Source: a virus. Taken from it: a stretch of 27,428 bases of DNA. Below the pieces are notes generated by a model that saw nothing but the letters and a program-made list of their open reading frames with translations, was not told the DNA's origin and did no database searches. The translations under genes and the position numbers were made by a program. Each line of letters opens with the position of its first letter. Within the stretch, counting starts at the first letter, position 1. Shown here piece by piece: positions 379 through 27,214 of the stretch. The stretch is taken from the IMG/VR virus record IMGVR_UViG_3300017917_003879, positions 1-27,428 of that record; one strand, written 5' to 3'.

Positions 379-380
379 TT

Positions 381-1388: not shown

Positions 1389-1428
1389 ACTATTATATAC
1401 CTACTATGTTGTCAAATAATGATAATTA

Positions 1429-3664: not shown

Positions 3665-3682
3665 TATTTTCTGCTTTTTAAG

Positions 3683-3690
3683 TATTTATG
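3683..3690 (-). promoter_or_regulatory. Candidate T4-type late promoter for gp13-gp14
   Basis: On the minus strand this reads CATAAATA, identical to the octamer upstream of gp15, in the 35-nt gap between the small ORF stop (3700) and the gp13 start (3664). The last base of the octamer is 18 nt from the ATG, so a transcript starting 5-7 nt beyond it would have a short leader containing AGCAGAAAA. No hairpin terminator is visible in the gap. Confidence 0.55.
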
Positions 3691-3699
3691 AACTAAATC

Positions 3700-10000: not shown

Positions 10001-11582
10001 CGTTAAAAATGAATGGTTCATTTTTGGAAAACTCTCCGGTTTTTTCATATACCGTTAATGCAGTTCCTGCAGAAACCGAACTCTTAAGAAAAGCAGTAGC
10101 TCCGCTATACTTTCCTTTGATAAAAGTTGGAACGGATAAAGTAATAGGTTCGTTTAATGTAATTTCTGTTGTAGTTTGAATATCATATAAAGAAATATTC
10201 CACTCATTCAGTTGTGGATTGTTTGAATTATAAGAACCAGAATCTAATCTAAAGTCATATACTCTAGCGACTCCAATTTCTTTTCCTGGGGATGTCATTG
10301 AGTTGACACCAACCCTAGAACTTCTTAGACTTAAGATATATGTATTTCCGATTCCAATTGTTGGAGCACCATAAACTCTGTTCAGTTTTAATGTAGAACC
10401 GGTATTATAATTAATTGATTGATTTTCTAAAGTTTTTGTTGTTCTTGGTTTTGGAACGTCTAAAAATGTTGGGCTGATAGTTTCAATTTCATACCCTCTA
10501 ACAAAAGCTTTGCCTGGAGAAACTTGATATAAAGCAAGATCTTCTGCTGGAGTTGAACCTCCGTAAGTTTGTTGATTTGTATTAAAAATGCCCTTGTTTC
10601 CTAAATTGTCATTTAATGATTCCTTAACTGACAAATCAAAAGGAGTTACATAATAATCTCCGGACTCAGAGTAAGTTCTTCTTGCAAGTTCATCCTCTAA
10701 AACACTATAATCGGTGTTTTTCTTTTGCGATCTTAATACACCATTAGTTATAGTTGCAAGTTCAATAAAGTTATTGTCATCAAAATCATCTAAACTCTTT
10801 TTAAATAAAGACGTTGTGATTTTTAATCTATCAGCGCCTGGCGCAGAATAGTTATTAAATCCACTTGAGTTATCATTTAAAGACGGATCAATGAAGGAAT
10901 TTATAATTTCTTCGGTGATTAAAAGTCCTACTCTATAACTTGGTTTATTTCCATATTGATCTAGAAGTATAGTTTCATCTTCTACTCTTAGAAACTGTCC
11001 TTTAGCAAAATAAACACCATTTGATATAGAAAAAGCAGAACCAACGGAAGTTGAATTTGTTGCTATAGTCGAAGCAAATGCCTCTCCTGACGCAATGATT
11101 GTATTCGCTGAACTTATTGTTTTATTTGATGAAAGAAGTTCTCCGTCAGAAAAATTAATAGTTGAATTATCTTGAGAATTTGAACCTAAGTAGCTAATGT
11201 ATAATGTCGTATTGCCTCTTTCGGATTCATCAGATAAAATAATTTTATTTACTACTGCCGTTACTCCAGAAGTTAGTCCTGTAATTTTTGCGCCTATTAA
11301 TTGATTAATATAATCTGATAATGGAATTCCCAAATAATTATTTTCAAGCTCTAAAGCATAATAAGAAGAACTATATGCGGTATTTCCAGGTATTACTTTA
11401 GCACCCTCTTTGAAGAAGTGCTGTCCAAATTTTTCAATTTGATTTTGGAGAATTGACTGTAAAGTCGTTAATTCTCTAGATTGAACAGGATATCCTGGTT
11501 TAAAAAGAACTTTATAATAGTCATTATTTGCATTAAAATCATCGAAATATGGAGATACATTGAGATTTGTTTCCTGTGACAT
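4092..11582 (-). CDS. Giant virion structural protein, DUF4815-type (2496 aa)
   Basis: A large structural protein, probably a peripheral baseplate or fibre-bearing component. The N-terminus MSQETNLNVSPYFDDFNAND (position 19 is N) followed by YYKVLFKPGYPVQSRELTTL and QSILQNQIEKFGQHFFKEGA is the hallmark start of DUF4815-type phage proteins. Other family landmarks are RNTDIIDIRPRVSDY near residue 1000, the helical LENRIKTLEYYTALSLLE near 1120-1140, FMRSRNIQFIAKKVKPSTQL then YAFFDG near 1410-1445, and DPLAQSFLVEDETGVFLTK near 1680. Several GxxSGxxAxV units occur (about 92, 485, 864, 1550), G-x-G-Y units at about 1900-1960, and one IGDEIISY unit near 2115. It lies exactly where T4 has genes 9, 10, 11, 12 and wac. 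The start is 6 nt after the gp8 stop, with no room for a promoter, so it is probably co-transcribed with gp8. Which T4 protein it replaces is uncertain. Confidence 0.9.
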   Translation of the reverse strand: MSQETNLNVSPYFDDFNANNDYYKVLFKPGYPVQSRELTTLQSILQNQIEKFGQHFFKEGAKVIPGNTAYSSSYYALELENNYLGIPLSDYINQLIGAKITGLTSGVTAVVNKIILSDESERGNTTLYISYLGSNSQDNSTINFSDGELLSSNKTISSANTIIASGEAFASTIATNSTSVGSAFSISNGVYFAKGQFLRVEDETILLDQYGNKPSYRVGLLITEEIINSFIDPSLNDNSSGFNNYSAPGADRLKITTSLFKKSLDDFDDNNFIELATITNGVLRSQKKNTDYSVLEDELARRTYSESGDYYVTPFDLSVKESLNDNLGNKGIFNTNQQTYGGSTPAEDLALYQVSPGKAFVRGYEIETISPTFLDVPKPRTTKTLENQSINYNTGSTLKLNRVYGAPTIGIGNTYILSLRSSRVGVNSMTSPGKEIGVARVYDFRLDSGSYNSNNPQLNEWNISLYDIQTTTEITLNEPITLSVPTFIKGKYSGATAFLKSSVSAGTALTVYEKTGEFSKNEPFIFNGIENTRVATAVTSYGISDVKSIYGIVGSASTFSADIIQSESFAIGVATISAYNVVGISTITSTNPLFPGNLKSGNLLKFSNQTTVDPVFASVVSVGTTQVTITGVATVFGVCDGGLPSAALQVTDLKVITTNLENSTDNSYYTILPKSNISSLDLTDASLSIRKSYIVNITDNQLSTTVLSGTNETFLPFDPERYSLIRSDGKSEVLTSDKISLTNGSSQLQIYNLGANDTGATLVTTIKKIKPKSKVKIKNRVNSLIIDKSKYVSSGIGSTTLNDGLSYGNYPYGTRVQDENISLNVPDIIEIHAIYETPNLSNPSAPTVVFSSITGPTGKTSDIIIGEIFTGQTSGASAICAERLSDSQISFILKNNINFKEGEIVVFEESNIQAVITTLNTPSFDISFNYSYDNGQNVSFYDYGSIKRKADAKEPNRKIKVYFSNGYYQSSDDGDITTVESYNGFDYIKEIQTVSSTRNTDIIDIRPRVSDYTVSQNLRSPLEFYGRTFTSSGNSAANILASNESIVTNFSFYLGRIDRVYLTKDGKFQIKYGTPSEKPEKPVSIDDALEIASISLPPYLYSTSQASLTFLEHKRYRMVDIKQLENRIKTLEYYTALSLLETNTSNLFIPDSTGLNRFKSGFFVDNFTSLLAQENRVEFKNSIDIKNKELRPQHYTDSIDLIQGPVTNIDPNRDLAFTDPEGTNIKKTGDIVTLNYSEIEWLKQTFATRSESVTPFLVSFWQGSVELTPASDTWVDTVRLEAKIINTEGNFAETLALASRTLSVDPQTGLSPTIWNAWETSWTGQEVIENTRERTETTNSGGRWGARGLRGNGDLTGGEWITGSTTTVFKDTLREVRDTGVQTRTGNRTIVTEQFDNTSVGDRVVSRNLISFMRSRNIQFIAKKVKPSTQLYAFFDGVNVTKYCIPKLLEINMVSGVFQVGETVIGRSRPTGLLPLDSKNIDSKVTFRVAQSNHKEGAYNNPSNVFTTNPYTSQTLPTTYSSTSTLLNVDTFSLSNQPEGGFSGYVEPAMILVGQTSGAQATISSVRLISDITATLIGSFYIPNPNSSSNPSFETGNKVFTLTNSAINDQNNASTIAEEGFISSGTLETVQENILSVRNARIENKREFEERATSRTTGTQVISTQAISSSSRTNVDIVWYDPLAQSFLVEDETGVFLTKCEVFFSAKDDIDIPVTFQLRTMQGGFPTQRVIPFSEVILNPSEVNVSSDGSVPTTFTFKSPVYLEGGTEYCICLASLSTKYSVYISRVGENDLITQTFISNQPYLGSLFKSQNASTWEPSQWEDLKFTLYRAEFVPSGSIEFYSPELSEGNNEVATLMPNSLNFNSRKIRVGLGSTLQDSELTLGNTILQQGTNASGNYVGNAGIATGTLNVINAGIGYTPSSGTFQFNGVPLTNVTGNGINAKANITITNGVAVAATISESGSGYVVGDVLGIGTIGANSLGSNARLSVVSIANTTQLILDNVQGDFKISGVGNTVQYINNSGLTTTLNSSTGGNVQISNIDIVSDGLHIVVNHKNHGMYFEQNYVTISDAQSDIVPSKLIVAYDSTSTSPISIDSSANFGTFENVGVGTTNLGYILIGDEIISYSSTSNGTLGGLISRSVDSTIAKNYPAGTLVYKYELGGVSLRRINKTHNLEDVTVSDAITFDSYNIKLDMGSSGVGRSDGLSYPKLYMNQTKSTGGYSTKATQNIPFELITPVVQNLTVQGTSISAEIRTVTGSSISGNEIPFNDAGFESVSLNKTNYLSSPRIICSKVNETNKLATLALPGNKSMNLRINLDSVDARVSPVLDTQRISTILTSNRVNSVISDYATDNRINSISEDPTAFQYLSKEIVLENPATSLKILVNAHVNIYSNIRAFYSISQTENFVPIYVPFPGYNNLNTKGQVINPEDNDGLSDFYVSPSTVVGFLPTEVEYKEYTFTADEIPSFKSYRIKIIMTSTNQVYVPRMRDLRVIALA

Positions 11583-13157: not shown

Positions 13158-13165
13158 TATTTATT
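13158..13165 (-). promoter_or_regulatory. Candidate T4-type late promoter for gp8 and the DUF4815 gene
   Basis: Minus-strand AATAAATA, fitting NATAAATA, overlaps the first base of the stop codon of the giant gp7-like gene and lies 18 nt before the gp8 ATG. Spacing to the start is the same as for the octamer before gp13. The motif is common in such AT-rich DNA, so this rests on its position in one of only three real gaps. Confidence 0.45.
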
Positions 13166-16100
13166 TAAGAATAATTGACATATTTTAGAGGAGCAACTCT
13201 AGTCAAAGTCGAAGATGTTGTAAGTCCAGATAATCCTCTAGTAGTATATACACTAAATGATTTTGGATCTCTTCGAGTATTTAAAGTAATTCTACCCCAA
13301 GAAAATTCGCCAAAGAAAGAACTATATCCAGTTCCAGATAGTGAATTGTAATTAGAAACACTAGTTATAACTCTAGTAACATAAGTCTGAGCAACTCCTG
13401 GAACAGAAGTTTGTGCAATAGATACTGATGCCACTTCAAAAATACCATCTAGGAATTGTGTGCCAATTCCCAAAATAGAACCATCTTGATAGATAGATGT
13501 CACTCCATTACCAATATTGCTATTTTTGACGGTAAAATAATAACCAGTTTGAATTCCACTTACTGTAGTTGCTGCTGACACAATCGAAGTATCTCTCAAG
13601 AAAGAATTTGTTGGAATGTAAAAATCAAATGCGATACCTGTAGAAGCAACTCCTACAGAAACTGTTGAAATTCCTACAATTATTCCAAAATCACCCTCAT
13701 ATGTCGAAGAAGTATTTGTTTCATAAATTATTTCTGGCACTTCAACAAGAACTTGTGGCGAATTTGATGAGGTATATCCATACCCTGGAGAAGTTACTGA
13801 TATAGATGATACCGTTCCCCCAACAGAAATAGTGGAAGAGGCAATAGCTCTTGCAGTCGTACCAAATCCTATCGGATTACTTATAGTCACTGTTGGTGCC
13901 GTAGTATATCCAACTCCACCACTAGTAATCAGGATTGATGATATTGTTCCAGCTGCAGAGACGACTGCAGTAGCAGATGCTCCAACTATGTTATCCTGAG
14001 AAATAATTATAATTCTTTGTTTATTTGTGGTGGTTTGATTTTCTTTCTGAGAATCAAAGAAAGTTCTGACGCTTTCGACGTATACAATCGTAGAACCAAT
14101 TCCAACTGATTGAATTATATTTGTTGTTGGATTTATTAGTGCCTCATTTAAAATTCTACTCTTGCTTACAATTTGTCCATTAATAATTTTATCCGTAGTT
14201 TGTTTGCACCATTCAATTGTTCTCTTGTTTTCTGGGTTTGAATCTATTCCATTTCCATCATAAGGATTTGTTTCAATAGCGTCAGAAGAAATCACACTAG
14301 TGACTAATCTTTCATCTTGATTTTTAATTGTCAAACTATCTCCAGGTTTAACTGTTTCTAAAACATCACGGAAAACAACATCAATATCTCCACTTCCTTT
14401 ATAGAAAAGAATTTTGCATTTATCTCCAATTATAGAACCATCTGAAGAAGTCCCTTTAGGTGGTTCGGAAAAAGTAATTACACTACCGCCAGTAAAAGTA
14501 TACGCTTCGTTTGGAACTTGTAAAATATCATTTAGAAATACTAGTAATGTCGCTTGAACATCAATATTCGAACCTTTCGCGGATCTTATAGTAACCGGAG
14601 AAGAATTTAATGAAACAGTGAAAGATCTTCTAACTCCATCAAATTGATTTTCAATCTTATCAAAAACTTCTAACTGCCCTAAATGCCATCCAGAAAATTC
14701 ATCGGATGCTGTTTTATCTATTTGAATTTGAAATTCTCTGAATGATTTTGAAATATCTGTAGGAATTCCTGTTGTTCCACCAAAAGGAACTGTTAAAATT
14801 TGAGATTGTCCATAATTATATCCAGGATTTTTAATTTCAAAATCAACAACACTAGAACCATATCCTACAGTTATATCAATCGTTGCTTGAGTTCCAAATC
14901 CAGAAGGAGATGCTGAACTATAAATCAATGGAATATTTGAATATGGTAAAGGTGAATCAAAAACTACATATGGTGGGTTTGAAGAAGTGTATCCAACACC
15001 CGGATTTGTAATTGCCACGCTAACAATATTTCCACCCAAAATTGCTGCCGTTCCAATAAATTGAATATTTGTTGTTCCAGTGGTTGACGTATATACGCCG
15101 ACATTTACATAAGTTTGAATTCCAGATCTATATCCAGATCCACTATTACCTATACTAATTGAAGATATTGTTCCTGCTATAGAAACAATAGCAGTTCCTC
15201 CAGCTGAAACAAGAGGTTGATAACCAAAACCATTTGTGGATGCAACAGAAATTATAATTCCACCCTTTGGAATAGTAGCATTATTTGGATCGTATGCTAC
15301 TGATGTAGCTGTTCCCGTAAATGTAATGCTGCTAATTCCAGAACCCTCTGTTAGAGTATAATCTTGTGAGGAGGATAATTGTCCTGTGGGAGATTGGAAT
15401 ATTCCATTTATTAAAATAACAGCATTATTGGTAGAAAATCCTGTAACATTCTGATTATTTGATTGTAATGCAAATATTTTTTGTGTGGCATTAAATCCTT
15501 GAGATATATCATCAAAAATATAATTATTAACATACGTCTCTTCACTACTATTTTCTGGTGCAGATCTTAAAAACATTCTTCCTTGAAATTTAGAAAAAGT
15601 TGTAATTCCTGCCCAGTCTCTCTCGCTTGGTGGATTCGTTGAACTTCCTATTGGAGTTGGTCCTTGAGGTGCGGTGATAAAATGTATTGTGTTATCTACA
15701 ATATTATAATTACCAGTCAATTTTGTGACTTTTGCATATTCCGAGTGAGTTGATAATCCAGTTCCCATCCAAGAGCGATTAACTAAAATAGAATTAGTGC
15801 TTCCAAGACCAACAGTATTAATTTTCATAATTTCATCATCAATTTTAATTAAATCTCCCCCAAAGAAAGATGTGATTCCAGAAAACTTAATTACATCATC
15901 TACGAGTCCAATGTGTGTAGTAAGACCTGTAGTAGCAGAAGTCGAGACAATTGGTGATTGAATATAGTTGTCGATTGCAATTAAACATTTTGTATTTTGA
16001 TTTTTTGCAGTGAAAGAATGATATGTTCCAATACCAAGACTGGTTATATCTAATTCAACTGGGATTGTTTTTAAAGCATCCTCAGCAGATCTCGCTAATT

Positions 16101-19100
16101 TAATTTTTTGATCGCTAACTTTAATAACGTAAACACTAGATGGTAAAAGTGATGTAGTCCCAATTCCAGCAAAACTTGTACTTGCTATTCCAATTGGACT
16201 TGAGTAAATTGTATCATATGAATATGTTACTTCTTCTCCACTTACAAAGAAATGTCCAGGGACTAAAAATGTGTTATCAGAAACATTTACTATAGAGGAA
16301 CTACTACCATCAAACACTTTCAAAAATATTGGTTGTTGTTGATGTGTTAAGTCAAATGCCCTTTTAACATCAATTTCAGTTCCCTCATAATAACCAAATC
16401 CTGCAGTTATAGATGCATTATTTAAATCAATATATGAGGATTGACTTTCTTCTATATCAACTAATTGAATGCTAGTTTGAAAAACACGAACTTGTATATC
16501 TGCATTTGAAATTGGCGTATAATATAAGTTTGTATATCCTGATGAAACTGCCGCTCCTACGGTTCCTAATGAAGAATTGGTTGTTAGATTGGCATATTGA
16601 GTAACATAAGCGTTTGTGCTGTCATTAAGGACTATAACCTCAGACATCTCATATTGATTGTTTGTAGTATCTTCTACACTTAAAACATAATATGCACAAC
16701 TATGATCACTTGGTACAATATTTTCGTATCTGGCAATTATTGTTTCTGTTGGGGTGGGAGACGATGATATTGCAACATATGAAGAGTCTAAAAATGCAAT
16801 ATTTTCAGAGTCAAATCCAATTTCTTTTCTTCCTGTTCCTATAGAAGAAGTGCTAGCTATGGAAACGACCAATGAATTTGCAGTAATTGCCATTCCTGCA
16901 TTTGCGGTGAAATCCAGGACAACATTTGAACCTGAAATATAAGCATTATATGTTCCCAATCCAGAAGTTCCAAATGTGTCTAAGGAATCATTTGTCAATT
17001 GTCCATATTGAATACTTTCAACATTAGTTCCATTATGAATTAAACTAATCTCATCAAATTGAATCTCACCGTTATCGCCGGATATTTCCAGTAAAATTTT
17101 AGAAGTTCTATAAGAAGAAGCAATAGAAACAATACTTGCTGTAGTATTTGCTGCTACTGGAGTTTCGAAACTTTCAATTTTTACAACATCTCCTAGGTTT
17201 GTAGAGCCCACTCCTGTTGTAGAAAGTCCAATAATATCAAAACTTGCAAAACTTAGATTATAGTTATTAACTGAATATTTTGTTGGATAAAATAGTAATT
17301 GTCCTTCGGAGCCGAAGACATTAAAGTCAAATCCACCTAAATCTAAGACACTTTCAACTCTTCCATATTGATTTATAAATCCAAAAGATCCATCTTGTAA
17401 TAGAGTTACAAGTAATATTTGTCTTTCGCCTGTATATCTAGAATCTCTAATGTAAATTAAATATTTTTTAGATCTATGAGTTAAATCGAATTTATCTACT
17501 ACCGAAAACTTAGTAGGCCTTGGTTCACTGTTAAACTGTCCACTAAAGTCATCGATAATTAATACTCTATTACCAAAAGATTCGAAGTAATCAGTTAAAA
17601 CTTTTGAATTGAAATATACTTCGTCAGAAATTATTTGACGATCACTATTTAAAGAATTCTCTGTAATTATATCAAAATTTGTATAGCAATTTATATCTAT
17701 TTCATCATATATATCAACTATGATGTCAATGTCCCCTCCTCTATAATTTGAATTAACGCCTCTGAAGTTATCATCTTTAGATTCTATTATCAAATCACTG
17801 AATTTTAAAAATCCTGCAGTGTGATTGAGAGAACTTACTGAGTCTTTCCAAGTTTCAAAAGGAACTTTTGATTTTAAAGAATATGAGAAATTTTGATAAT
17901 AATTATTATCAGAGATTCTTTCTGTATTTGAATTCAAAAACCCCGCTTCTCTCTGCCACCCCTTTTTAACAATTGAAGTGGCTCCAGTTTCAATTTCGGC
18001 GTTGAAATCTATTTTTGATTTTATTGCGCCCTGAGTTCTGGAAGTTTTCCCAACTAAAACATCACCAACACTAAAATCTTCTGTTGTTGAAACTTTTAAA
18101 AGTTCAATTTCTTTATTCCAACTTTCAACCTTTCCTAATTTATTATTACCTAAGGCAACTGTTTCTCCAATTATAAAATCATTTTTTCTTAGTTTAATGT
18201 CAAATACTGGGAAATCTTTTTCTGCTATTATCCTACCAGATGATTTTAATGCATCAAAATTTCCTGGTAAGTCTCCACCCTTTAAAAATCCGTTAAGACT
18301 ATAAGTAACAACGCCAACGTTTCCGCCAAGAGCACTAGATCCAGCTGGAACTTTTGTTAATGTAAACAAAGAATACCCATAATCAACAGAATTGTATCCT
18401 ATTCCAGTTGTTCCGACACCAACGCTAATGTTTTCTATTAAAACTTTATCACCAACGGAGAATGGGAAAGAATCACTAAATCCAGTATTTAAACCAACGC
18501 TTACCTCTTTTGTTGATTCGTTATATGAAATACTATTAATACCTATTCCATTTTGATTTCCTATTGGAATAATTTTTGGTGGAGTGTTATAGATTCCAAA
18601 AGTATTCTTTAGTATTTTTACTTTTGTATCGCCTATAGTGTAAGATAAATCTACATCATCAACCACTTTATTAGTATATCCATCAATTACAACTAATTTT
18701 GGAGATATTGTATAATTTTTTCCAGCAGAAGTAACTCCAATTTCATCAAATGATGAAAGTGGTTGCATTAATAAAATTTCTGGTAAATTGCAAACAGGTC
18801 TTAAAGTTTTATCTGTGGGAAAATCAAATCCAATGTCATCTATTTGATTAGAAATAATTTTTCCTATTGATTTACTTGAAGGTTCGAGTATAGAGCCACT
18901 TCCATTCACTGTTACTATCGAGGAAATACCCACTACATTTTCATATCCTTTACCGGAATAGGTAATGGATATACTTGACATTCCTCCGTTTGCTGTTAAG
19001 GAGCTTGTAGAATATTCAAGATTTGCTTCACTAGAATTATATCCGTATCTTTCTGGAGTTTTTTCTAAATCATAAGAGAATGTGGTGTTTGACTCAATCT

Positions 19101-22100
19101 TATGGATAGAATTGTATCCATTATATAAACTATTTTTTACTTCAATTTGATTTGAATTTGTGACTTCCGTGTCAATATAAATTTCTTTTTTAACTTGAGA
19201 TACGAATTGTGAATTAACAGGTGAAAACTTATAGTACAATCTTTCTGGTAAATAATCAGTTACATTTAAAGTTAAAGCTGCATCGGTTGTTATGCCAATT
19301 TGTCCTATCTTAGACACTTCGAAAGAAGTAGTTTTTTCTGTAGATTCAAAAGAATTATTAAATTCAGAATCAAGATAAAGACTAAAATCAAATGCAGAAT
19401 ATAAAGTAGATCCGCTTAGACTAGAAAGTGAAGAATCTGACAAATCAAATCTAAGAGTATTATTTTTAAATGCTATAATTGGTGGATTAATCTGAGATAA
19501 AGTTCCAGATGCCGCAGATGTTATGTCTATGATATCTGGATTAAATTTTAAAGATTGATATTTATTTAAACATAATTTAACCTTATCATTTGTAAAACGG
19601 AATATATAATAAATTTTTTCATTTGATAATCCTGCAGATGGACTTGCAGAGGTGTATATTACTTTATCGCCACTTTTTAGTCCATGATTGTGAATTGTAA
19701 TGGAATTATTTAAAACATCTACATCTCCAGCATTAAAAGATTTTGGATTGAATACTATTCTTCTGTTATAGTCATCATATTTTACTATTATAGTTGTGGT
19801 TATACCACAATTGACTTTTATATTAACTATATCATTTAAAGTTAATCCATGTGTTGTAGCAGTAGAAACTGTGACTACATTTTTATCAAGCTCAGCATGT
19901 ACTACATTTTCTTTTTGTGTTTTAAAGCTATGATAGATGCCAGTCCCAATTCCAGTAAAATATAAAAGTTTAGTATTTAATGTTGTGGTTGCAATACCGA
20001 CAAAAGTTCCTGTAGATCCAATACCTACTTTGTAAGTGGATAAACCAATTAAATCATTTGAAATTTTTGCGACATAAACAGATGAAAATTGAGTTAATGC
20101 AAGTCCACTTGTTCCACCAGTAGAAACTGTGATGGAACTTCCTTGATAAGTATTATACGATAAAATATCACCTGTTTTTAAATCATGATTTGGAAGATAA
20201 ACTGACTGAGTTGGTATGAAAATTTGTGTTAGTCCAGCTCCTGGATTTGAGAACGATATTGTAGTTCCTATCCCAACACCACTTAAAGTTCCAAGTCCTA
20301 TTGATTCTTGAGGATTAAAATAAATTTCTCTATTAAGTTCAAAAATAACTTCGTTTTCTGGAAGAGAATTGAAAGTGAATTTTCTTGAATTTTCCTGTAA
20401 AATTGTTGATGCAGTATGAGCAGAAGAGACGGTATTTTCTTGAGATCTAAGAACTTTAATTCTAGAATTTAAAGAATCAATTTGTAGTATTTTGACTTTT
20501 TCGGAACCTATTGAAAAAATATCATTCTCTCTTATAGAAAGAGGATTATCACTTCTCAAATTTCCAGATACATTGAAGAAAGTTACGATTCCTGTAACTC
20601 CAACTGTTCCAACTCCAGTTGTAAGAATTAATTTTTCTGTAGTTACGCCAATATTAAAACTGGATTGTAAATGATTAATTGAAGTGTTAAAACCGGATAG
20701 TGAAACTAAATCGTTATTTGTAAGATTATGTGGAGACGTTGCAAAAGCGACATATGACTTATCTGAGTTAAAAGGAGAAATTTCTAAAAGAGATATATTA
20801 GTCGTAGCTACACTAATATTATTTACAACTTTTCCTAAAATTTCAGATACTTTTGCCTTTGCTTTTTTAGCATATGCATATTCTTCAAAAGTTATAGTAT
20901 CGCCAACTTTATAACCAGAACCTCCAGTTACAATTCCAATTGAATCAATACTTCCTCTGGAAGATTCATTAATGTTTATAGTTTGTGGTTTTATTTTATT
21001 AGGTTGGAAAAGAAAATCATAATAAGTTCCATTATCATTTAATCCATATGGAGATGTATTTCTAAACCAAGAAGAGGAATTTAAATCATAAGAAATTTGA
21101 TTTGAACTAGCCTCATAATTGAATAAATTTGGTTTAGATTTAAAAGAATTGCCAATAAGATATGGAAAAACTGGTATTTTATATTTGTTAAATGCTGAAG
21201 AAGTTTCTACTCTATCTGGATTTATAGTTGCAAAGTAAGCGTAAACTCCATTTGGAAATTCTGGAGTTTTGCAAAAACGCCCATTGTGTTCATCCAAATC
21301 TCCTGAATTAGTAAATTCATAGTCCTCAACAAAAAATCCTTGTATAAACGGAGGTCTATTTGGTTTGGTTACGGGAGTATAACCAGATTTCATCGCTCTA
21401 ATAGAATCTCCAGTTTTTATTGGGAATCCATATGGACCATAAATTGGATTGCCATCATATGCCCAACCAATAATTGGGGAGTGATATTGTGAAGATGTTT
21501 CCTCTCCATTTGCTGTTTTTTGTAAATCAAATACTCCATATTTTGTTTGATTTCCTTCCCCTTTTCCATATATGGATTCTCTTAATTTTCTTGGAGCATA
21601 TAAATAAGAATATTGAATTCCATAATCATCATTTAATGATGTTGTTATAATTCCATCATCTTCTGAAATTATATTCAAATACTTTTGGAATAAATTAATT
21701 GTCCATTTTTGTATATCCGCATTAAATTGAGCACCATCTCCACTGGGTATGATTGTTACTTTAGTTTTATCATCGTAATCAATTCCTGCGCTTGCAATTT
21801 TTACTGATTTAATTTTGCCATCATTTACAATTGGAATTAGTTTTGCATATTTTCCAGAACCAGCAACAATTAAATCTGGAGGTGAATTGTAATCTTGTCC
21901 CTCATTGGTAACTAAAACCTCTACTATCCTTCCATTATTAATAATTGGTAATAGTTCTGCTGAAGAACCGTTTAATAAGGAAAAACTTGGTTGTCTGTTG
22001 TAATTTAAAATATCAGTAACGCCATATCCAACTCCAGTATTTGTTACTTGAACAGACTCAACAGAACCTCTAAATATCGGTTGAACTTTTGCAGAAAAAT

Positions 22101-25100
22101 CTTGTCCAGTAAAAGTTGATACTCCTATTTCACCATCTATGGACACAGAAATTGGTTCATAGTTGAAATAATGACTACCAGAACCAACAGAACTCAAGTT
22201 AATATATTGTTTATTATTGAAATAAAAGAGTTTTGCAGTGGATCCTACACCGACACTTGATAATTTGAAATTATTTTCATCTACTTTTGTGACAACATAT
22301 GAAGTTAGTGAACTTAATCCAGACACAGGAGCATCAGTATATGAATATTCTACTATTTCTCCAGAATTGTATTGATGGTTTGATATATTAATTTGGTTTG
22401 CTGCTGTATTAATTCCAGAAGAAATTGCGACTCTTCTCTTATTTTGATAATTTAAACCAGGATCAACAACAACAATATTTGAAACAATTTGTTTTTTATT
22501 AACAGATTGTATCCTATGGATGCCAACACCATACCCAGTTAAAGCTACTGTACTGATACCAGAAATTATATCAGATTCTGATTTATAAAGTTTAATGGTA
22601 TATGCATCAACTGTATTAACAAAATAAATAGCATCAGTAATAATACCCGCAACAGCAGTCTGCCCATCTGTTTTGTAAACTACTTGTTCCGAATTTCTGA
22701 ATTTATGATATGTAGAAAATCCAATAGTATTATTAGTTAAATTTACAAATGCAGAACTTGCTGTTGCATTAAAAGAAACTGAATGCTCTACAAATGTTGT
22801 GTTAACATCTGCTTTTGCGCCATAACCATTTCCGCCAGTAATAGTGATAATGGGTTTATTAATATAATCAAATCCAGAATCAATAACGTCAATTCTTCTT
22901 AATGTTCCTTTTATTGAGCAATTTCCAGTAGCTCCAGTTCCAACTTTATCTCTAATCGATAGTATTGGCGGATTAATGATATCATAATTACTTCCTGGGG
23001 AAGAAACTTGGATACCATTTAAAGATCCATAATAAATCGTATCTTCTGCTTTATAATTTAATATCTCTACACCATTAATTAATATACCAGTCTTTCCTGG
23101 AGTAGTTGAATAGTTTCCACTCTTTAAATCTGGTTCTTTAATTTCTCTCAACAATTGTTGATGTTGTATTGTTTTGCCGTGAAAACTAGCATACTCTAAA
23201 GTATTAGAGGTAACTATTCCCGAAACTGATATAAATTTTTGATTATATAAATTTGCCTGACTACTTGCAAGTTTAAATTGATTGGGGTTTTCTAATCTTT
23301 TTATGTAGTAAACACCCTCCTGCATATTATTGAATTTACTGACAGTAGTAACTGTGCTTCCATCAACTACATCTATTCGAGTATATGGAGTATAATAAAC
23401 TGCATCACCAGTATAATAACCATGATCAGTTATATCCGGAATAGTAAAAACTTCTCCACTATAATTTCCGCTGAGAATTATTTTTCTATCATAAAAATTT
23501 AATGCCTGATTATAGTAATTTGGAAGAGAAGATGATGCAACCAAAACATCTTGATTAAATTTTACATAAGTGTTTTGAATATCAGATGTATACTTTGTTA
23601 GATGTAAATAATTAGATAATAAAGAACTTACTTGTGGTTTTGCGATTTTTCTTTGTACTTTAAAACCAATTCTACTTACATCTAGATATCCTTGTCCCGT
23701 TATAGAAAAGGTAAAGTCGTCTGTGATATCACTGATAAAACAATCTTTAGAAACTGAAGATGAGTCGGTGATGGATAGATTATCTCCTATTTTAAAATTA
23801 TTTTTTGCAAAAGTTGTTATTCTATATGTAAAATTGGAGGTATCAACTAATAATAGTGACTTAACATCATATTTGGTTGACAAATTATAAATCCAAGAGT
23901 CTACTTTGGGACTCGATGTTGTAATACCAAGGGATTTGATAGTTCCAGTGTCATTTTTTGAGAAATAATATGTTGAATCATCTACTTTTAAGTTTGAAAG
24001 AACAGATCCAATTCTGACATCAACTCTAGATGCTGTACCAACTCCAACATATCCATACGCATAAGCATTTAATCTAACATCTTCTGCCGAATTAATATCA
24101 GAAATTACATTTGAAACTCCAAAAAATTGATTTAATGATTTTGAAGTATAAGAAACTATACCAGATTCCCCTGAAGAGTATATTACAACTAATTCTCCAG
24201 AATTTGGAAATCCAACAGTAGAATCTACATCAATAATAGAAGAACCCGTAGATACTGTTGATATGACTTTTGTATTTGAATGTACTGAAAAATCACCAAA
24301 CACACTACCATCAAACGTAATATCTTTTGAATAATCAAAATCAACACTTAACTTATAATATTCTTTACCATCAAAATATAATTTTTCTACGTTACTAATT
24401 GAAGCATATGCTTTTTGAATATCGTAATTTGGATATTCATCCTGAAAAAGAGTTTGATTTAATAATTCGAGAGGATTGCCAGATAAAGCACTTACAACTA
24501 TGTCTTTTGTAACTCTGTATTGTGCATCTGACGGTCTAAAAAGATAATCTCTTGGTTTTATGACTTCTACTTTTTCGCCATATAATGCTCCAAAAAGAAT
24601 TTTAAAAGATTCATCAGTTCCTTTTGTTTGATAAAAATCTTTCGCTCTTGATATAAACAGCCTTTCATTTACATCAGAATCAATTTGCCTATCTTCAAAT
24701 CCTGGAGTAAATTGATATTTAACCTTTGATAAAAATTGATTTAAAAGCAGAGCACTTAGATTGATAATTTTTGTTCCTGCTTCGTGCTCAGAAATTTCGG
24801 AAGTTGAGAATGTTAAGTTATCAGTTGAATCTAAATTTTTATATGAAGTTACACCACTAAATCCCCTTAAACATCCAACAAAACTAGTATTTGTTTTACT
24901 GGAATAAAGAATAATTTCATCATCAATTTGAATCAATCCATACTTGTCCGGAAATCCATATGTACCAATAACATTATCATCTAAATTAAAAGAAACACTA
25001 ATAGTAGTATCTGCAAAAGAAATAGAAGACTCTAACTTAGTATAATCAGAGTTATTAGTGAGAGTCTCTAACTTTAAATATTGATCTATATTCTGTATCA

Positions 25101-25248
25101 AATCAACAGAAGCGCCAGGATATTCCTGAGAGATATAATATTGTTTTAAAAACTCTACGATTAAAGGAAAATCTTCCCTAACAAAACTTGGGAGTTGATG
25201 TTCGACTACATCTTGGATTTGTACTCTCTTGAGATCTGTTGATATCAT
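13165..25248 (-). CDS. Giant gp7-like baseplate wedge protein with YHYH-like domain and beta modules (4027 aa)
   Basis: The gene occupies the gene 7 position between gp6 and gp8. In T4, gp7 (1032 residues) is the central wedge organiser. Residues 23-45 (VREDFPLIVEFLKQYYISQE) and about 197-229 (LFISRAKDFYQTKG then TDESFKILFGALYGEKVEV) resemble the T4 gp7 C-terminal third (RSYDFYSTKGIEASYKFLFK). A second gp7-like block near 2445-2485 (YYQNFSYSLKSKVPFETWKD, then HTAGFLKF) resembles T4 YYVMKIKSNLPSSRWKSD..HPVGF. Between and after them are G-x-G-Y repeats (about 740-815, 1058-1183, 3350-3480, 3755-3836), HGLxTGD units, a YHYH-like domain (about 1245-1365: SPIIGWAYDGNPIYGPYG, LDEHNGRF, PNGVYAYFAT), an IDDEI unit at 106-113 and another near 3130-3180, and a tandem duplication (about 2710-2930). 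It starts one base after the gp6 stop. The frame is open throughout. gp7 homology is from memory of the T4 sequence and local only. Confidence 0.85.
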   Translation of the reverse strand: MISTDLKRVQIQDVVEHQLPSFVREDFPLIVEFLKQYYISQEYPGASVDLIQNIDQYLKLETLTNNSDYTKLESSISFADTTISVSFNLDDNVIGTYGFPDKYGLIQIDDEIILYSSKTNTSFVGCLRGFSGVTSYKNLDSTDNLTFSTSEISEHEAGTKIINLSALLLNQFLSKVKYQFTPGFEDRQIDSDVNERLFISRAKDFYQTKGTDESFKILFGALYGEKVEVIKPRDYLFRPSDAQYRVTKDIVVSALSGNPLELLNQTLFQDEYPNYDIQKAYASISNVEKLYFDGKEYYKLSVDFDYSKDITFDGSVFGDFSVHSNTKVISTVSTGSSIIDVDSTVGFPNSGELVVIYSSGESGIVSYTSKSLNQFFGVSNVISDINSAEDVRLNAYAYGYVGVGTASRVDVRIGSVLSNLKVDDSTYYFSKNDTGTIKSLGITTSSPKVDSWIYNLSTKYDVKSLLLVDTSNFTYRITTFAKNNFKIGDNLSITDSSSVSKDCFISDITDDFTFSITGQGYLDVSRIGFKVQRKIAKPQVSSLLSNYLHLTKYTSDIQNTYVKFNQDVLVASSSLPNYYNQALNFYDRKIILSGNYSGEVFTIPDITDHGYYTGDAVYYTPYTRIDVVDGSTVTTVSKFNNMQEGVYYIKRLENPNQFKLASSQANLYNQKFISVSGIVTSNTLEYASFHGKTIQHQQLLREIKEPDLKSGNYSTTPGKTGILINGVEILNYKAEDTIYYGSLNGIQVSSPGSNYDIINPPILSIRDKVGTGATGNCSIKGTLRRIDVIDSGFDYINKPIITITGGNGYGAKADVNTTFVEHSVSFNATASSAFVNLTNNTIGFSTYHKFRNSEQVVYKTDGQTAVAGIITDAIYFVNTVDAYTIKLYKSESDIISGISTVALTGYGVGIHRIQSVNKKQIVSNIVVVDPGLNYQNKRRVAISSGINTAANQINISNHQYNSGEIVEYSYTDAPVSGLSSLTSYVVTKVDENNFKLSSVGVGSTAKLFYFNNKQYINLSSVGSGSHYFNYEPISVSIDGEIGVSTFTGQDFSAKVQPIFRGSVESVQVTNTGVGYGVTDILNYNRQPSFSLLNGSSAELLPIINNGRIVEVLVTNEGQDYNSPPDLIVAGSGKYAKLIPIVNDGKIKSVKIASAGIDYDDKTKVTIIPSGDGAQFNADIQKWTINLFQKYLNIISEDDGIITTSLNDDYGIQYSYLYAPRKLRESIYGKGEGNQTKYGVFDLQKTANGEETSSQYHSPIIGWAYDGNPIYGPYGFPIKTGDSIRAMKSGYTPVTKPNRPPFIQGFFVEDYEFTNSGDLDEHNGRFCKTPEFPNGVYAYFATINPDRVETSSAFNKYKIPVFPYLIGNSFKSKPNLFNYEASSNQISYDLNSSSWFRNTSPYGLNDNGTYYDFLFQPNKIKPQTININESSRGSIDSIGIVTGGSGYKVGDTITFEEYAYAKKAKAKVSEILGKVVNNISVATTNISLLEISPFNSDKSYVAFATSPHNLTNNDLVSLSGFNTSINHLQSSFNIGVTTEKLILTTGVGTVGVTGIVTFFNVSGNLRSDNPLSIRENDIFSIGSEKVKILQIDSLNSRIKVLRSQENTVSSAHTASTILQENSRKFTFNSLPENEVIFELNREIYFNPQESIGLGTLSGVGIGTTISFSNPGAGLTQIFIPTQSVYLPNHDLKTGDILSYNTYQGSSITVSTGGTSGLALTQFSSVYVAKISNDLIGLSTYKVGIGSTGTFVGIATTTLNTKLLYFTGIGTGIYHSFKTQKENVVHAELDKNVVTVSTATTHGLTLNDIVNIKVNCGITTTIIVKYDDYNRRIVFNPKSFNAGDVDVLNNSITIHNHGLKSGDKVIYTSASPSAGLSNEKIYYIFRFTNDKVKLCLNKYQSLKFNPDIIDITSAASGTLSQINPPIIAFKNNTLRFDLSDSSLSSLSGSTLYSAFDFSLYLDSEFNNSFESTEKTTSFEVSKIGQIGITTDAALTLNVTDYLPERLYYKFSPVNSQFVSQVKKEIYIDTEVTNSNQIEVKNSLYNGYNSIHKIESNTTFSYDLEKTPERYGYNSSEANLEYSTSSLTANGGMSSISITYSGKGYENVVGISSIVTVNGSGSILEPSSKSIGKIISNQIDDIGFDFPTDKTLRPVCNLPEILLMQPLSSFDEIGVTSAGKNYTISPKLVVIDGYTNKVVDDVDLSYTIGDTKVKILKNTFGIYNTPPKIIPIGNQNGIGINSISYNESTKEVSVGLNTGFSDSFPFSVGDKVLIENISVGVGTTGIGYNSVDYGYSLFTLTKVPAGSSALGGNVGVVTYSLNGFLKGGDLPGNFDALKSSGRIIAEKDFPVFDIKLRKNDFIIGETVALGNNKLGKVESWNKEIELLKVSTTEDFSVGDVLVGKTSRTQGAIKSKIDFNAEIETGATSIVKKGWQREAGFLNSNTERISDNNYYQNFSYSLKSKVPFETWKDSVSSLNHTAGFLKFSDLIIESKDDNFRGVNSNYRGGDIDIIVDIYDEIDINCYTNFDIITENSLNSDRQIISDEVYFNSKVLTDYFESFGNRVLIIDDFSGQFNSEPRPTKFSVVDKFDLTHRSKKYLIYIRDSRYTGERQILLVTLLQDGSFGFINQYGRVESVLDLGGFDFNVFGSEGQLLFYPTKYSVNNYNLSFASFDIIGLSTTGVGSTNLGDVVKIESFETPVAANTTASIVSIASSYRTSKILLEISGDNGEIQFDEISLIHNGTNVESIQYGQLTNDSLDTFGTSGLGTYNAYISGSNVVLDFTANAGMAITANSLVVSIASTSSIGTGRKEIGFDSENIAFLDSSYVAISSSPTPTETIIARYENIVPSDHSCAYYVLSVEDTTNNQYEMSEVIVLNDSTNAYVTQYANLTTNSSLGTVGAAVSSGYTNLYYTPISNADIQVRVFQTSIQLVDIEESQSSYIDLNNASITAGFGYYEGTEIDVKRAFDLTHQQQPIFLKVFDGSSSSIVNVSDNTFLVPGHFFVSGEEVTYSYDTIYSSPIGIASTSFAGIGTTSLLPSSVYVIKVSDQKIKLARSAEDALKTIPVELDITSLGIGTYHSFTAKNQNTKCLIAIDNYIQSPIVSTSATTGLTTHIGLVDDVIKFSGITSFFGGDLIKIDDEIMKINTVGLGSTNSILVNRSWMGTGLSTHSEYAKVTKLTGNYNIVDNTIHFITAPQGPTPIGSSTNPPSERDWAGITTFSKFQGRMFLRSAPENSSEETYVNNYIFDDISQGFNATQKIFALQSNNQNVTGFSTNNAVILINGIFQSPTGQLSSSQDYTLTEGSGISSITFTGTATSVAYDPNNATIPKGGIIISVASTNGFGYQPLVSAGGTAIVSIAGTISSISIGNSGSGYRSGIQTYVNVGVYTSTTGTTNIQFIGTAAILGGNIVSVAITNPGVGYTSSNPPYVVFDSPLPYSNIPLIYSSASPSGFGTQATIDITVGYGSSVVDFEIKNPGYNYGQSQILTVPFGGTTGIPTDISKSFREFQIQIDKTASDEFSGWHLGQLEVFDKIENQFDGVRRSFTVSLNSSPVTIRSAKGSNIDVQATLLVFLNDILQVPNEAYTFTGGSVITFSEPPKGTSSDGSIIGDKCKILFYKGSGDIDVVFRDVLETVKPGDSLTIKNQDERLVTSVISSDAIETNPYDGNGIDSNPENKRTIEWCKQTTDKIINGQIVSKSRILNEALINPTTNIIQSVGIGSTIVYVESVRTFFDSQKENQTTTNKQRIIIISQDNIVGASATAVVSAAGTISSILITSGGVGYTTAPTVTISNPIGFGTTARAIASSTISVGGTVSSISVTSPGYGYTSSNSPQVLVEVPEIIYETNTSSTYEGDFGIIVGISTVSVGVASTGIAFDFYIPTNSFLRDTSIVSAATTVSGIQTGYYFTVKNSNIGNGVTSIYQDGSILGIGTQFLDGIFEVASVSIAQTSVPGVAQTYVTRVITSVSNYNSLSGTGYSSFFGEFSWGRITLNTRRDPKSFSVYTTRGLSGLTTSSTLTRVAPLKYVNYS
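13740..13985 (-). repeat. G-x-G-Y-T beta repeats near the C-terminus of the giant protein
   Basis: Two consecutive units: ISSILITSGGVGYTTAPTVT and VSSISVTSPGYGYTSSNSPQ, each preceded by an Ala/Gly/Ser-rich linker (AVVSAAGT, STISVGGT). Same pattern as the gp14 block. Confidence 0.7.
14805..15200 (-). repeat. Second C-terminal cluster of G-x-G-Y beta repeats
   Basis: Three units in residues about 3350-3481 of the giant protein: ISSISIGNSGSGYRSG, IVSVAITNPGVGYTSSNPPY and VVDFEIKNPGYNYGQSQ. Spacing between the Tyr positions is irregular, so these look like diverged modules rather than recent copies. Confidence 0.65.
16470..17130 (-). repeat. Tandem duplicated domain in the giant protein (two diverged copies)
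   Basis: Copy 1 (17125 to about 16850, residues about 2708-2800) contains SYRTSKILLEISGDNGEIQF, DEISLIHNGT, QYGQLT, LGTYNAYISGSNVVLDFT and ends SLVVSIAS. Copy 2 (16705 to about 16475, residues about 2848-2925) contains CAYYVLSVEDTTNNQYEMSE, VIVLNDSTNAYVTQYANLTT, SLGTVGAAVSSGYTNLYYT and ends IQVRVFQTS. Aligned landmarks are the paired strands, the [IV]x[HL]N[GD][ST]TN unit, QY[GA][QN]LT and LGT. The copies are clearly related but well diverged. Confidence 0.65.
21155..21510 (-). other. YHYH-like domain inside the giant gp7-like protein
   Basis: Residues about 1245-1365 show the YHYH domain pattern: YHSPIIGWAYDGNPIYGPYG, then GDLDEHNGRFCKTPEFPNGV, YAYFATINP and FPYLIGNSF. The family's eponymous Y-H-Y-H is here Y-A-Y-F, so the two histidines are replaced while the surrounding fold signature remains. 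The domain lies far from the two gp7-like blocks. Confidence 0.75.
21700..22075 (-). repeat. G-x-G-Y / G-x-D-Y beta repeats before the YHYH-like domain
   Basis: Three units in residues about 1058-1183: VESVQVTNTGVGYGVTD, IVEVLVTNEGQDYNSPPDLI and IKSVKIASAGIDYDDKTKVT, alternating with AELLPIINNGR, AKLIPIVNDGK and AQFNADIQKW. The regular 'xIIxxGxIxxVxVTxxGxxY' period of about 45 residues makes this the cleanest tandem array in the giant protein. Confidence 0.7.
22805..23030 (-). repeat. First G-x-x-Y beta repeats of the giant protein
   Basis: Two units in residues about 740-815: LNGIQVSSPGSNYDIINPPI and LRRIDVIDSGFDYINKPIIT, with small-residue linkers GTGATGNCSIKGT and GNGYGAKADVNT. Same period as the following array. 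Confidence 0.65.
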
Positions 25249-25249
25249 T

Positions 25250-27214
25250 TTATCTTACTAAAAGTCCGTTTGTATAACTTGAAGAAACTATGTAGTTTGC
25301 CCCCGAAACATCATAACCCGATGAAATTTGATCTGGTTTCGAATCAATGGTTGTTTTAGACATATCTAACTGTAGATATAAGTCTTGACGCCCAATCACA
25401 TCATTTGAATATGGTGGTACAGAAATTTCAATTAAAGGAAATCCTCTGTTGATAGCAGTGTTCGTGATATTAATAGGAGATAAATTTATTTCTCCCTTAA
25501 CATAATCAATTGTTCCAACAGATTTTCTGACAATTTCTGGTTGTGTTGGGGAATTCAATCTAAACAAGAATATTGTTCCTGTTTTTTTATCTTGATTTGG
25601 TATATCGGAGAGATATACTGTGCCAATAATTCCACTCACATTAAAACCAGAAGATTTGATATTAAAACTATTTTCCGTAACTCCATTTATATTTAATCCA
25701 GAATATTCTATGTTGAGAACCTTTTCATTTTTAATATGAAATCTATTACCAAAACATATTTCATACTCTGCAAAACTATTTAATGCCACTCTCAAATCCC
25801 TTCTCATGACAACGGTAGTGATATTGGAAGTAATTGCATCACTACTATCATCAATTATTTTTAAAAACTTACTGTACTTAAATCTTGCACCAAATTTGTT
25901 CAATTCTGAAGAATTTGCATATCTTTCAACCGTGCTCGATACAATTGATGCAATTGAGTTTGCAGATTGTGCTAAATTTGTATTATAATATGCATTAATT
26001 GATGGTTCAAGATAAAGATATTTTAAATCTATAATTTCTGGTATAATCCCAGCAACAGAATACTTTTTAATTTCTCTTTCAATATTATCTTTAATTAAAT
26101 TTGACAAATATGCACCATTAGTTGGTTTAATGCTAATAAAAACTTTTCCAAACTGTGGTGGGGCTAGATCTTCTCCACCAAACACCGAAATAGATTCAGT
26201 TTCTGGGTAGATAGTTGGAATGATAGATTCATAGTCCTTAGCAGTCACTGCTCTGTTTTGGGAAGCATAAATTCTTGATGCATACTTTTTAATCGATTCT
26301 ACACTTTCAATCTCTTTTCCTGAAAAAGATATTTCATTAGTTGTAATTAGAGATATACCTGATGCAATAGATGCAGTGCTTCTTGGTGATGTAATCTTCC
26401 CGCTGAAATTAAATTGTGAAATTCCATTTGCAGATTCACCATTTGAAACTAGATATGAAACTTGAACATAATTTGGAGATTCTAATTTGACACCAAATAC
26501 GCCATCTCCAAAAATTAATTCATATCTTTCATCTTCTATCTCCTGAACAAAAAAGATTGGAGAATCTGGAGTTATAGTAAATAAACTATCCGCTTGTCTA
26601 TACTTTCTACTAATATCAGATGTTTCACTTGGTTTTACAATGACTCGAATCGAAGAAGTATCAATTTTTGAATTTGGAAGAATGAACCTTTGATTTGGAT
26701 TAAAAGAATCTACAGTAAAAGTAGTGGTAACATAGGTTCCTTCGTAAATATCGACATCATCAAAAGATGCAATATTATCAACTACGGGAACAGTAATATC
26801 ATCAAGAATAGAAAAAGTATAACTTTGATTTCCAAAAGCAGATGTTGAACAAACAACTCCTTTGTTCAGAGTTAGAGTTTCTGGTTTGATTGGATATGCA
26901 GTATCAGAAGTAGTGTCAACGAAAAGAGATATATTTGCTCTTGAGGATTGCACTGATTTGGGAACATAACCAATATTTCGTGCAAGAGAGACTACATTTT
27001 CTCTGAGAGTTGCACTATCAATAAAAACTTCATTCGATACCATATTGGCATTATATGAAGTAATATACGTATTATATGCCAGAACATCAAGAATTACCGA
27101 TAAATTAGATCCCTCAAAATCATAGTCGGTGAAATTTGAATTAGATCTAAGATAATCTTTAATAGATGTTTTAATCTGATCGAAATCTAGATTTGTAAAA
27201 TTAACTAATGGCAT
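25250..27214 (-). CDS. 6: Baseplate wedge protein gp6
   Basis: gp6 forms the ring-linking wedge subunit of the contractile baseplate (J-type baseplate family). The 654-residue length matches the 660 of T4 gp6. The N-terminus has the conserved FTDYDFEGSNLSVILDVLAY then NTYITSYNANMVSNEVFIDS and ATLRENVVSLARNIGYVPKS, typical of gp6. The family motif YELIFGDGVFGVKL lies at 231-244, and the region YASRIYASQNRAVTAKDYES (311-330) through FGGEDLAPPQFGKVFISIKP (345-364) is also characteristic. Near 440-475, KFGARFKYSKFLKIIDDSSD and TTVVMRRDLRV are further landmarks. Unlike its neighbours it carries no obvious repeat insertion. Its ATG overlaps the gp25 stop (TAATG), and the giant gp7-like gene follows one base after its stop. 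Confidence 0.96.
   Translation of the reverse strand: MPLVNFTNLDFDQIKTSIKDYLRSNSNFTDYDFEGSNLSVILDVLAYNTYITSYNANMVSNEVFIDSATLRENVVSLARNIGYVPKSVQSSRANISLFVDTTSDTAYPIKPETLTLNKGVVCSTSAFGNQSYTFSILDDITVPVVDNIASFDDVDIYEGTYVTTTFTVDSFNPNQRFILPNSKIDTSSIRVIVKPSETSDISRKYRQADSLFTITPDSPIFFVQEIEDERYELIFGDGVFGVKLESPNYVQVSYLVSNGESANGISQFNFSGKITSPRSTASIASGISLITTNEISFSGKEIESVESIKKYASRIYASQNRAVTAKDYESIIPTIYPETESISVFGGEDLAPPQFGKVFISIKPTNGAYLSNLIKDNIEREIKKYSVAGIIPEIIDLKYLYLEPSINAYYNTNLAQSANSIASIVSSTVERYANSSELNKFGARFKYSKFLKIIDDSSDAITSNITTVVMRRDLRVALNSFAEYEICFGNRFHIKNEKVLNIEYSGLNINGVTENSFNIKSSGFNVSGIIGTVYLSDIPNQDKKTGTIFLFRLNSPTQPEIVRKSVGTIDYVKGEINLSPINITNTAINRGFPLIEISVPPYSNDVIGRQDLYLQLDMSKTTIDSKPDQISSGYDVSGANYIVSSSYTNGLLVR

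Follow-up and report, generated by a model that had tools for sequence, protein, structure and literature searches.

A giant probable gp7 baseplate wedge protein with a split core in a virus genome fragment

In phage T4, gp7 joins two gp6 chains (PMC6300606), contributes to the pins together with gp8, gp10 and gp11, and binds gp9 through one of its domains (PMC3004832). Print and databases disagree about its presence in marine relatives of T4. PMC7029224 reports T4 gp7 as absent from pelagi- and cyanomyophages, where it 'appears to be substituted' by VrlC. PMC3037559 places gp7 in the non-cyanophage core, among proteins too divergent to cluster as one, and the list of morphogenesis genes, as shown in PMC2993671, is without gene 7. 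In GenBank, open reading frames (ORFs) of 3,007-4,446 amino acids from S-SM2, P-HM1 and S-SSM7 are already named gp7. ORF 122 of S-CREM2 (1,937 amino acids), in the same place, is listed as 'baseplate wedge protein, intermediate', with 91 unique peptides in the particle (PMC10665884). Here we analyse a virus fragment of 27,428 bases, IMG/VR record IMGVR_UViG_3300017917_003879 (the window), and its ORF of 4,027 amino acids. With a probability of roughly 0.75, this ORF encodes a gp7 baseplate wedge protein whose split core carries its own peripheral arms.

A giant gp7 is not new, since GenBank gives that name to the S-SM2 and P-HM1 ORFs and the S-CREM2 paper lists a homologue. What is of interest is where the insertion sits, the size series that it forms among relatives and the correction of names; in the accessible parts of the open-licence literature we found no account of a split domain V. 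The ORF has the following layout:

13165..25248, minus strand: probable gp7 orthologue, 4,027 amino acids, stop codon included (ORF and PHROG 2885 match)
25024..25230, minus strand: N-terminal helical part, residues 7-75, counterpart of the T4 helical domain (643-689) via compact relatives
24769..25023, minus strand: small 'DDEII' module, residues 76-160
24529..24696, minus strand: block 1, residues 185-240, with a KGT motif at 209
24265..24528, minus strand: front part of the domain V counterpart, residues 241-328
17977..24264, minus strand: insertion, residues 329-2424, about 2,100 amino acids, borders approximate
17764..17976, minus strand: end of the domain V counterpart and block 2, residues 2425-2495, with YYQNFSY at 2450
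13168..17763, minus strand: C-terminal extension, residues 2496-4027 (about 1,530 amino acids)

Block 1, around its KG motif, is gp7-like. BLASTP aligns window residues 158-229 with T4 gp7 680-758 at E 1.8e-6; this value, like the one for block 2 against T4 below, was computed over 20 proteins only. When all solved structures were searched with a profile of the window family over residues 1-330, two sequences were retrieved up to E 10, both of them gp7 (E 1.4e-5 and 2.9e-4). We also scanned the protein in 66 tiles of 120 residues against a six-sequence profile of T4-type gp7 with hhalign, the same profile reversed serving as control (E-values from the tile and domain V profile comparisons are for single pairs of profiles). 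Five tiles beat the best reversed score of 22.8, and all of them overlap the blocks or the domain V part: 181-300 (91.0), 121-240 (79.7), 2401-2520 (38.1, block 2), 2461-2580 (27.1) and 241-360 (23.8). The helical part is reached through compact gp7 relatives, namely those of Melnitz (896 amino acids), phiN3 (1,006), HTVC008M (1,016) and metagenomic forms from 590 amino acids upwards, all with both blocks. Their positions 11-122 align to T4-type gp7 648-762, and window residues 15-252 to Melnitz gp7 16-242. The gp7-like block that the original prediction, made from the window sequence alone, had placed at about residues 23-229 is thus confirmed by BLASTP, tiles and structure-database profile, and widened to about 7-328. 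The 'DDEII' module within it may be an insertion relative to T4.

The second block, expected at about 2445-2485, was found at about 2425-2495 with the T4 order kept. It matches T4 864-889 with E 2.2e-4 and the compact relatives with E 2.3e-25 (one pair of profiles). The case for it is carried by the match to compact relatives and by its occurrence in every relative whose sequence reaches far enough; as a second motif after domain V it is gp7-like, though weak against T4 alone. The motifs of the two blocks lie 2,241 residues apart in the window (209 and 2450), and their T4 counterparts (738 and 858) only about 120, in the same order, as the original prediction had it.

The insertion can be placed more closely than in the original prediction. 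Pfam sets the limits of T4 gp7 domains at 643-689 (helical domain), 766-861 (domain V) and 920-1012 (domain VI). In profile alignments, window residues 185 to about 328 correspond to T4 711 to about 831, extending weakly to window 343 and T4 851, and window residues 2435-2491 correspond to T4 832-898. The break therefore lies inside domain V, at T4 ~831-851. The large insert between core blocks claimed earlier is therefore present, with its place refined to the end part of one core domain. Altogether, the sequence comparisons identify residues ~7-328 and 2425-2495 as two parts of one gp7 core. Domain V itself is recognized in the window protein by profile alignment, and its fold on a compact relative only.

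That relative, of 590 amino acids (locus L249), gave a predicted model with a mean predicted local distance difference test score (pLDDT) of 50, well predicted only in its beta parts (~131-250 and 471-510). In Foldseek, three matches alone had E <= 0.001: 5iv5_BJ, 9f4a_A0 and 5hx2_A. The last is gp7 by profile search; for the other two, entry, length and numbering point to gp7, and we take them as such. VIA ranked the same entries highest (Z 12.0 for 5iv5, 11.5 for 9f4a, 8.6 at 4.0 Å for 5hx2; next entry 6.2). Its top match comprises 88 residues at 2.5 Å, with the first aligned model residue at 131 and the last at 517, on T4 chain residues 763..851. This predicted range is compatible with a domain whose closure takes in residues from the far side of the insert. 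A profile of the compact relatives, searched against all solved structures, likewise finds gp7 (E 1.3e-6 and 2.4e-4), followed by chance hits at 1.4 and 1.5.

The position of the gene is also that of gp7. The ORF runs uninterrupted from an ATG at 25248 to 13165 on the minus strand; the plus-strand reading of 13165..25248 is full of stops. In the direction of transcription the window holds the end of gp25, gp6, the 4,027-residue ORF and gp8, an order that we also saw in S-SM2, HTVC008M and S-H34; a VrlC counterpart follows in the window. The intact ORF between gp6 and gp8 of the original prediction thus stands, with its neighbours identified:

27214-27426, minus strand: end of gp25
25250-27214, minus strand: gp6, 654 amino acids
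11589-13139, minus strand: gp8, 516 amino acids
4092-11582, minus strand: counterpart of VrlC (as named in S-SM2 and HTVC008M), 2,496 amino acids, with a DUF4815 match
1437-2816, minus strand: head closure protein gp14/Hc2
381-1388, minus strand: sheath stabiliser

PHROG 2885, 'baseplate wedge subunit', matches the ORF with 3,678 bits (residues 7-3393 on profile positions 8-3361 of 4179). The two gp7 blocks occur in this one of the nine window proteins and are absent from the other eight. The VrlC counterpart is 62% identical to the compared part of S-SM2 VrlC. The source phage is probably T4-like and related to marine cyanophages, its host type being read from relatives alone; a megablast search of the window against phages matched a single piece of 61 bases, in 7 records.

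We then followed both blocks through relatives. Among 50,697 phage records, tblastn finds 475 with window residues 1-1,083 (E <= 1e-5) and 440 with residues 2340-2500 (E <= 1e-3). Outside the cyanophages, the block 2 region also matches Nitratidesulfovibrio phage SRB7757, a phage of a sulfate reducer (PV062637.1, 58376-58663, E 9e-7). The metagenomic sample consists of 240 loci, the best 80 of each scan out of 552-594 confirmed relatives (for two scans, at least that many), so its spacing ranges are no census. Sequence after block 1 was too short in 66 loci, the threshold being 2,330, 470 or 1,350 codons depending on the set; all of the remaining 174 have block 2. The two blocks share one ORF in 170 of these and lie in separate ORFs in four, never in reversed order. 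In the four (L043, L088, L184, L214) both ORFs are on one strand; by coordinates, L184 resembles an in-frame stop, L043 and L088 frame changes, and L214 shows a gap of some 670 bases; sequencing errors or gene splits may account for these cases. Spacing, measured with hidden Markov models (HMMs) of the blocks, spans 379-2,306 residues over the 170 loci: 2,158-2,306 in 38 close loci, 379-447 in 65 Melnitz-like and 383-1,337 in 67 phiN3-like ones (first counts of 40, 66 and 67 ORFs were replaced by these). The window, loci L021-L100 and named relatives went into building the block HMMs and so match them partly by construction; T4, HTVC008M, S-H34 and loci L101-L260 are independent of them. The HMMs match T4, HTVC008M, S-H34 and all 11 other non-T4 gp7s of the named set, with these distances between block matches:

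Window: 2,184 residues
S-SM2, 2,206; S-SSM7, 2,179; ACG-2014f, 2,149; P-HM1, 2,337
syn9, 2,707; P-RSM6, 2,799
S-PM2, 1,577; S-RSM4, 1,562; S-CAM4, 1,549; S-H34, 1,603
phiN3, 793; HTVC008M, 523; Melnitz, 380

The first 6,408 residues of the P-RSM6 ORF were read, and the first 2,389 of the second S-SSM7 'gp7'. The insertion had been put forward as a trait of this phage lineage; it is indeed present there, and it extends well beyond this phage, with 380-2,799 residues in 13 named non-T4 gp7s. In T4 we estimate the counterpart of the inserted place at about 75 residues. One insertion site thus yields a size series of ~75 (T4, the estimate), 380, 523, 793, ~1,550-1,600, ~2,150-2,340, 2,707 and 2,799 residues, which makes the composition of the marine myovirus baseplate rim directly testable.

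Among 33 long close relatives, the insert regions show identities of 0.54-0.62 and the two blocks 0.70 and 0.68. The corresponding values to S-SM2 are 0.41-0.47 against 0.55 and 0.56, to S-SSM7 0.27-0.41 against 0.50 and 0.49, and to ACG-2014f 0.20-0.38 against 0.49 and 0.45. In near relatives the insert is a stable component and not a rapidly evolving tip.

The original prediction had also announced a huge insertion and a C-terminal extension of some 1,500 residues, which holds with about 2,100 inserted residues and about 1,530 after block 2. Single-module profiles searched along the chain resolve these regions in part:

23233..23433, minus strand: 'HGLxxGD' module copy, residues 606-672 (E 1.2e-5)
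22810..23037, minus strand: 'GxGY' repeats, residues 738-813 (E 1.7e-8)
22564..22734, minus strand: 'HGLxxGD' module copy, residues 839-895 (E 5.2e-7)
22231..22407, minus strand: 'HGLxxGD' module copy, residues 948-1006 (E 6.7e-18)
21697..22077, minus strand: 'GxGY' repeats, residues 1058-1184 (seed 1058-1150), predicted beta structure
21217..21501, minus strand: C-terminal half of a YHYH domain, PF14240 positions 87-184 of 193, residues 1250-1344
19537..19713, minus strand: 'HGLxxGD' module, residues 1846-1904, within the seed
15334..15618, minus strand: 'FLNxxLQ' module copy, residues 3211-3305 (E 2.3e-6)
14452..14796, minus strand: 'FLNxxLQ' module, residues 3485-3599, seed

Weak further 'HGLxxGD' copies lie at 1397, 1681, 2989 and 3040, and besides the seed there are 'GxGY' copies at 738-813, 1131-1184, 3357-3492 and 3753-3802. 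Against reversed proteins, the module profiles gave nothing below E 0.1. The PF14240 match scores 75 bits, with a Pfam cut-off of 25. Residues 1090-1169 of the 'GxGY' region reach block-mean pLDDT values of 77-91 in a predicted model of the 'GxGY' and half-YHYH parts (mean 55). In the viral structure library, the insert matches named cyanophage structural and baseplate proteins. Solved structures yielded no hit to the YHYH-region profile up to E 1 and none to the whole protein up to E 10 in phmmer. Searched against the PDB, the model gave no Foldseek match with E <= 0.001 and a best VIA Z of 4.9, a null result that is no evidence for a new fold.

Some of these modules are shared across the locus. 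'GxGY' repeats are common to gp7, head closure gp14/Hc2 (best E 1.8e-10), gp8 (3.2e-8) and the VrlC counterpart (2e-5). This sharing may be the reason that gp7 relatives are mixed, in profile libraries, with 'head closure Hc2' and 'head and packaging' families. The VrlC counterpart also has traces of the 'DDEII' module that gp7 carries at residues 76-160 (E 6e-4); the trace in the sheath stabiliser (0.14) is non-significant.

The original prediction further held that this lineage had lost the N-terminal part of T4 gp7. Fifty tiles compared with the single T4 sequence over 1-640, an insensitive comparison, scored at best 23.0 (probability 2.4%) against 20.9 reversed, which does not set them apart from the control, and domain VI (T4 920-1012) gave no tile match above control and no Pfam hit there. 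With the T4 N-terminal domains undetected, the window protein would fall outside T4-type (Straboviridae) gp7 in the narrow sense. Complete compact relatives of 590 amino acids begin at the same point as the window protein, also without the T4 N-terminus, and the gp7 orthologue of phage XM1 has only 242 residues (PMC10457771); it is therefore no less likely that the T4 line gained this part. The word 'lost', which presupposes a polarity, appears doubtful and is not kept.

How such a protein might work is suggested by gp7-like proteins elsewhere, which dock peripheral proteins by loops or ends. Two loops leave the C-terminal beta sheet of TssG, each holding one TssK trimer (PMC6300606); residues 80-106 and 201-242 of XM1 gp17 hold tail spikes (PMC10457771); and in A-1(L), the C-terminal loop of gp32 holds the long fibre together with an insertion of gp31 (PMC10966104). 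The enlargements of the window protein seem to sit at comparable kinds of place. The two core parts would meet again in the fold, and the rejoined core would bridge two gp6 chains in the manner of T4 gp7. By the analogy with these proteins, the insert and the C-terminus would leave the wedge as arms, combining in one chain the peripheral scaffolding and fibre docking for which T4 uses the gp7 N-terminus with gp9, gp10 and gp11. Both the position and the work of these arms are thus proposed from likeness. More tentatively, gp7 of marine T4-like phages may be an integrated baseplate periphery, in which arms grown on a compact wedge protein before block 1, within domain V and at the C-terminus replace the separate gp9, gp10 and gp11 by fusion; gp7-like proteins elsewhere dock separate receptor-binding proteins at such kinds of place.

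Several observations weigh against a split gp7 with peripheral arms. Residues 2340-2640, searched as a profile against all solved structures, gave two hits (E 0.93 and 1.5), neither of them gp7, for which reason block 2 alone is the weaker evidence; its direct match to T4 is also weak. Of the profile comparisons, proposed earlier as a check on both blocks, the search of solved structures bears out residues 1-330, which match gp7 only, and the hhalign tiles bear out both segments. T4-specific Pfam models of the helical domain, domain V and domain VI have no match in the window protein, where PF23786 reaches 19.4 bits, below its cut-off of 27 (in two compact relatives it exceeds the cut-off, with 40 and 32.9 bits). 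A weak third stretch inside the insert, residues ~731-780 (22909-23058, minus strand), resembles T4 ~743-796. Tiles of 160 residues against T4 641-1032 score 28.3 (641-800) and 27.9 (721-880) there, with probabilities of 15 and 13% and a reversed best of 19.4, and in the 120-residue scan the same place scores 19.9, under the control of 22.8. Chance may account for the resemblance, or a second piece of domain V type. The L249 model is poor, with the helices of both blocks mostly below pLDDT 50, and the VIA ranges, which mark just the two ends of an alignment, would allow a small as well as a large share of domain V from beyond the insert. In distant relatives such as ACG-2014f, the insert diverges faster than the core. 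Finally, docking is no monopoly of the gp7-like chain, since the A-1(L) insertion that also holds the long fibre belongs to gp31, a two-copy wedge protein (PMC10966104).

Other explanations seem less probable, to different degrees. Receptor-binding parts are usually hypervariable. The insert has a near-constant length in the 38 close relatives and is only moderately less conserved than the core there. This speaks against its being itself an adhesin that decides host range, a role suggested by the half-YHYH domain, the repeated modules, the structure-library matches to cyanophage structural and baseplate proteins, and the listing of YHYH domains among putative receptor-binding parts in PMC7029224. 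We consider an adhesin unlikely, with some room left because the gap in conservation between insert and core widens in distant relatives. It is very improbable that the YHYH part acts as a metal-dependent hydrolase and opens the cell envelope. PMC7824862 predicts a tail-associated enzyme of this kind from conserved histidines and an aspartate of YHYH domains, but the match here begins at position 87 of PF14240 and covers only half of the domain. The YHYH segment itself is nowhere in the window protein, in none of the 29 rows of our alignment (A4) and in none of nine named cyanophage gp7s (one read in part); we rejected the hydrolase as the main explanation on these grounds. Two bacterial YHYH proteins (L263, L264) carry the segment upstream of the matched half, and they too are without the histidine at the later site where the window has YAYF. 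Cleavage of the chain after assembly, leaving arms and core separate in the particle, is equally improbable. The point in its favour comes from S-SSM7, where one gene holds the counterparts of window residues 4-2494 and 3012-3147 and a second gene holds those of 3154-3287 and 3425-3733, so the C-terminal extension can be separate.

An assembly chimera of two genes would be conceivable for one metagenomic contig; with both blocks in one ORF at like spacing in 38 close loci on other contigs, and the same layout in named phages, we rejected it, and its probability is negligible. Hardly more credible is the printed view that gp7 is absent, with VrlC in its place and the ORF an unrelated structural protein (PMC7029224). 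A VrlC counterpart is present as well (4092-11582), gp7 and VrlC lie near each other, and only the 4,027-residue ORF has the blocks. The stated absence from cyano- and pelagimyophages is thereby contradicted. At the sequence level, a replacement by VrlC is refuted and the presence of gp7 is settled where print and databases disagree, with a split core in all 13 named non-T4 gp7s and in all 174 loci long enough to show it. For a gp7 with a split core, names need correction too. Pelagibacter phage HTVC008M encodes a protein of 1,016 amino acids between gp6 and gp8 (NC_020484.1, L265:5983-9033) that has both blocks and bears the RefSeq name 'head closure Hc2'; it is likely a misnamed gp7, and gp7 can thus be filed under that label. 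S-H34, which belongs to the same cluster as S-CREM2 (PMC10665884), is the member of that cluster in which both blocks were checked. In S-SSM7 (L008), two ORFs annotated gp7 flank a 'baseplate wedge tail fiber protein connector'.

Among known systems, the closest is gp7 of Synechococcus phage S-SM2 (GU071095, 4,156 amino acids, 'baseplate wedge initiator'), which shares the gene order of the window and is 44% identical over window residues 7-3353 and 3380-4001. It also has a half-YHYH match and its blocks lie 2,206 residues apart; beyond divergence, we saw no difference. The longer ORFs of syn9 (6,076 amino acids) and P-RSM6 (~8,570), neither annotated gp7, have both blocks in order and share, from the half-YHYH domain, the HSPIxGWAxDG stretch. 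Their N-terminal part and block 1 are separated by about 500 extra residues, which mark a second insertion place. Compact relatives differ by the 379-1,337 residues between blocks in two compact locus sets, and the 590-residue form has about 50 residues after block 2 against about 1,530 in the window; the inserted stretches of L249 and Melnitz show, by eye, 'GxGY'-like repeats as in the window. T4 gp7 (1,032 amino acids; PDB 5IV5, 5HX2) shares the helical part, KG motif, domain V and second motif in the same order. It differs in having its motifs about 120 residues apart, without large insert or extension, and its 640 N-terminal residues and domain VI are undetected in the window protein. More distantly, TssG of type VI secretion, XM1 gp17 (242 amino acids) and A-1(L) gp32 can be likened to the window protein by their published descriptions: each is present in one copy beside two gp6-like chains and uses its loops or ends to dock peripheral proteins.

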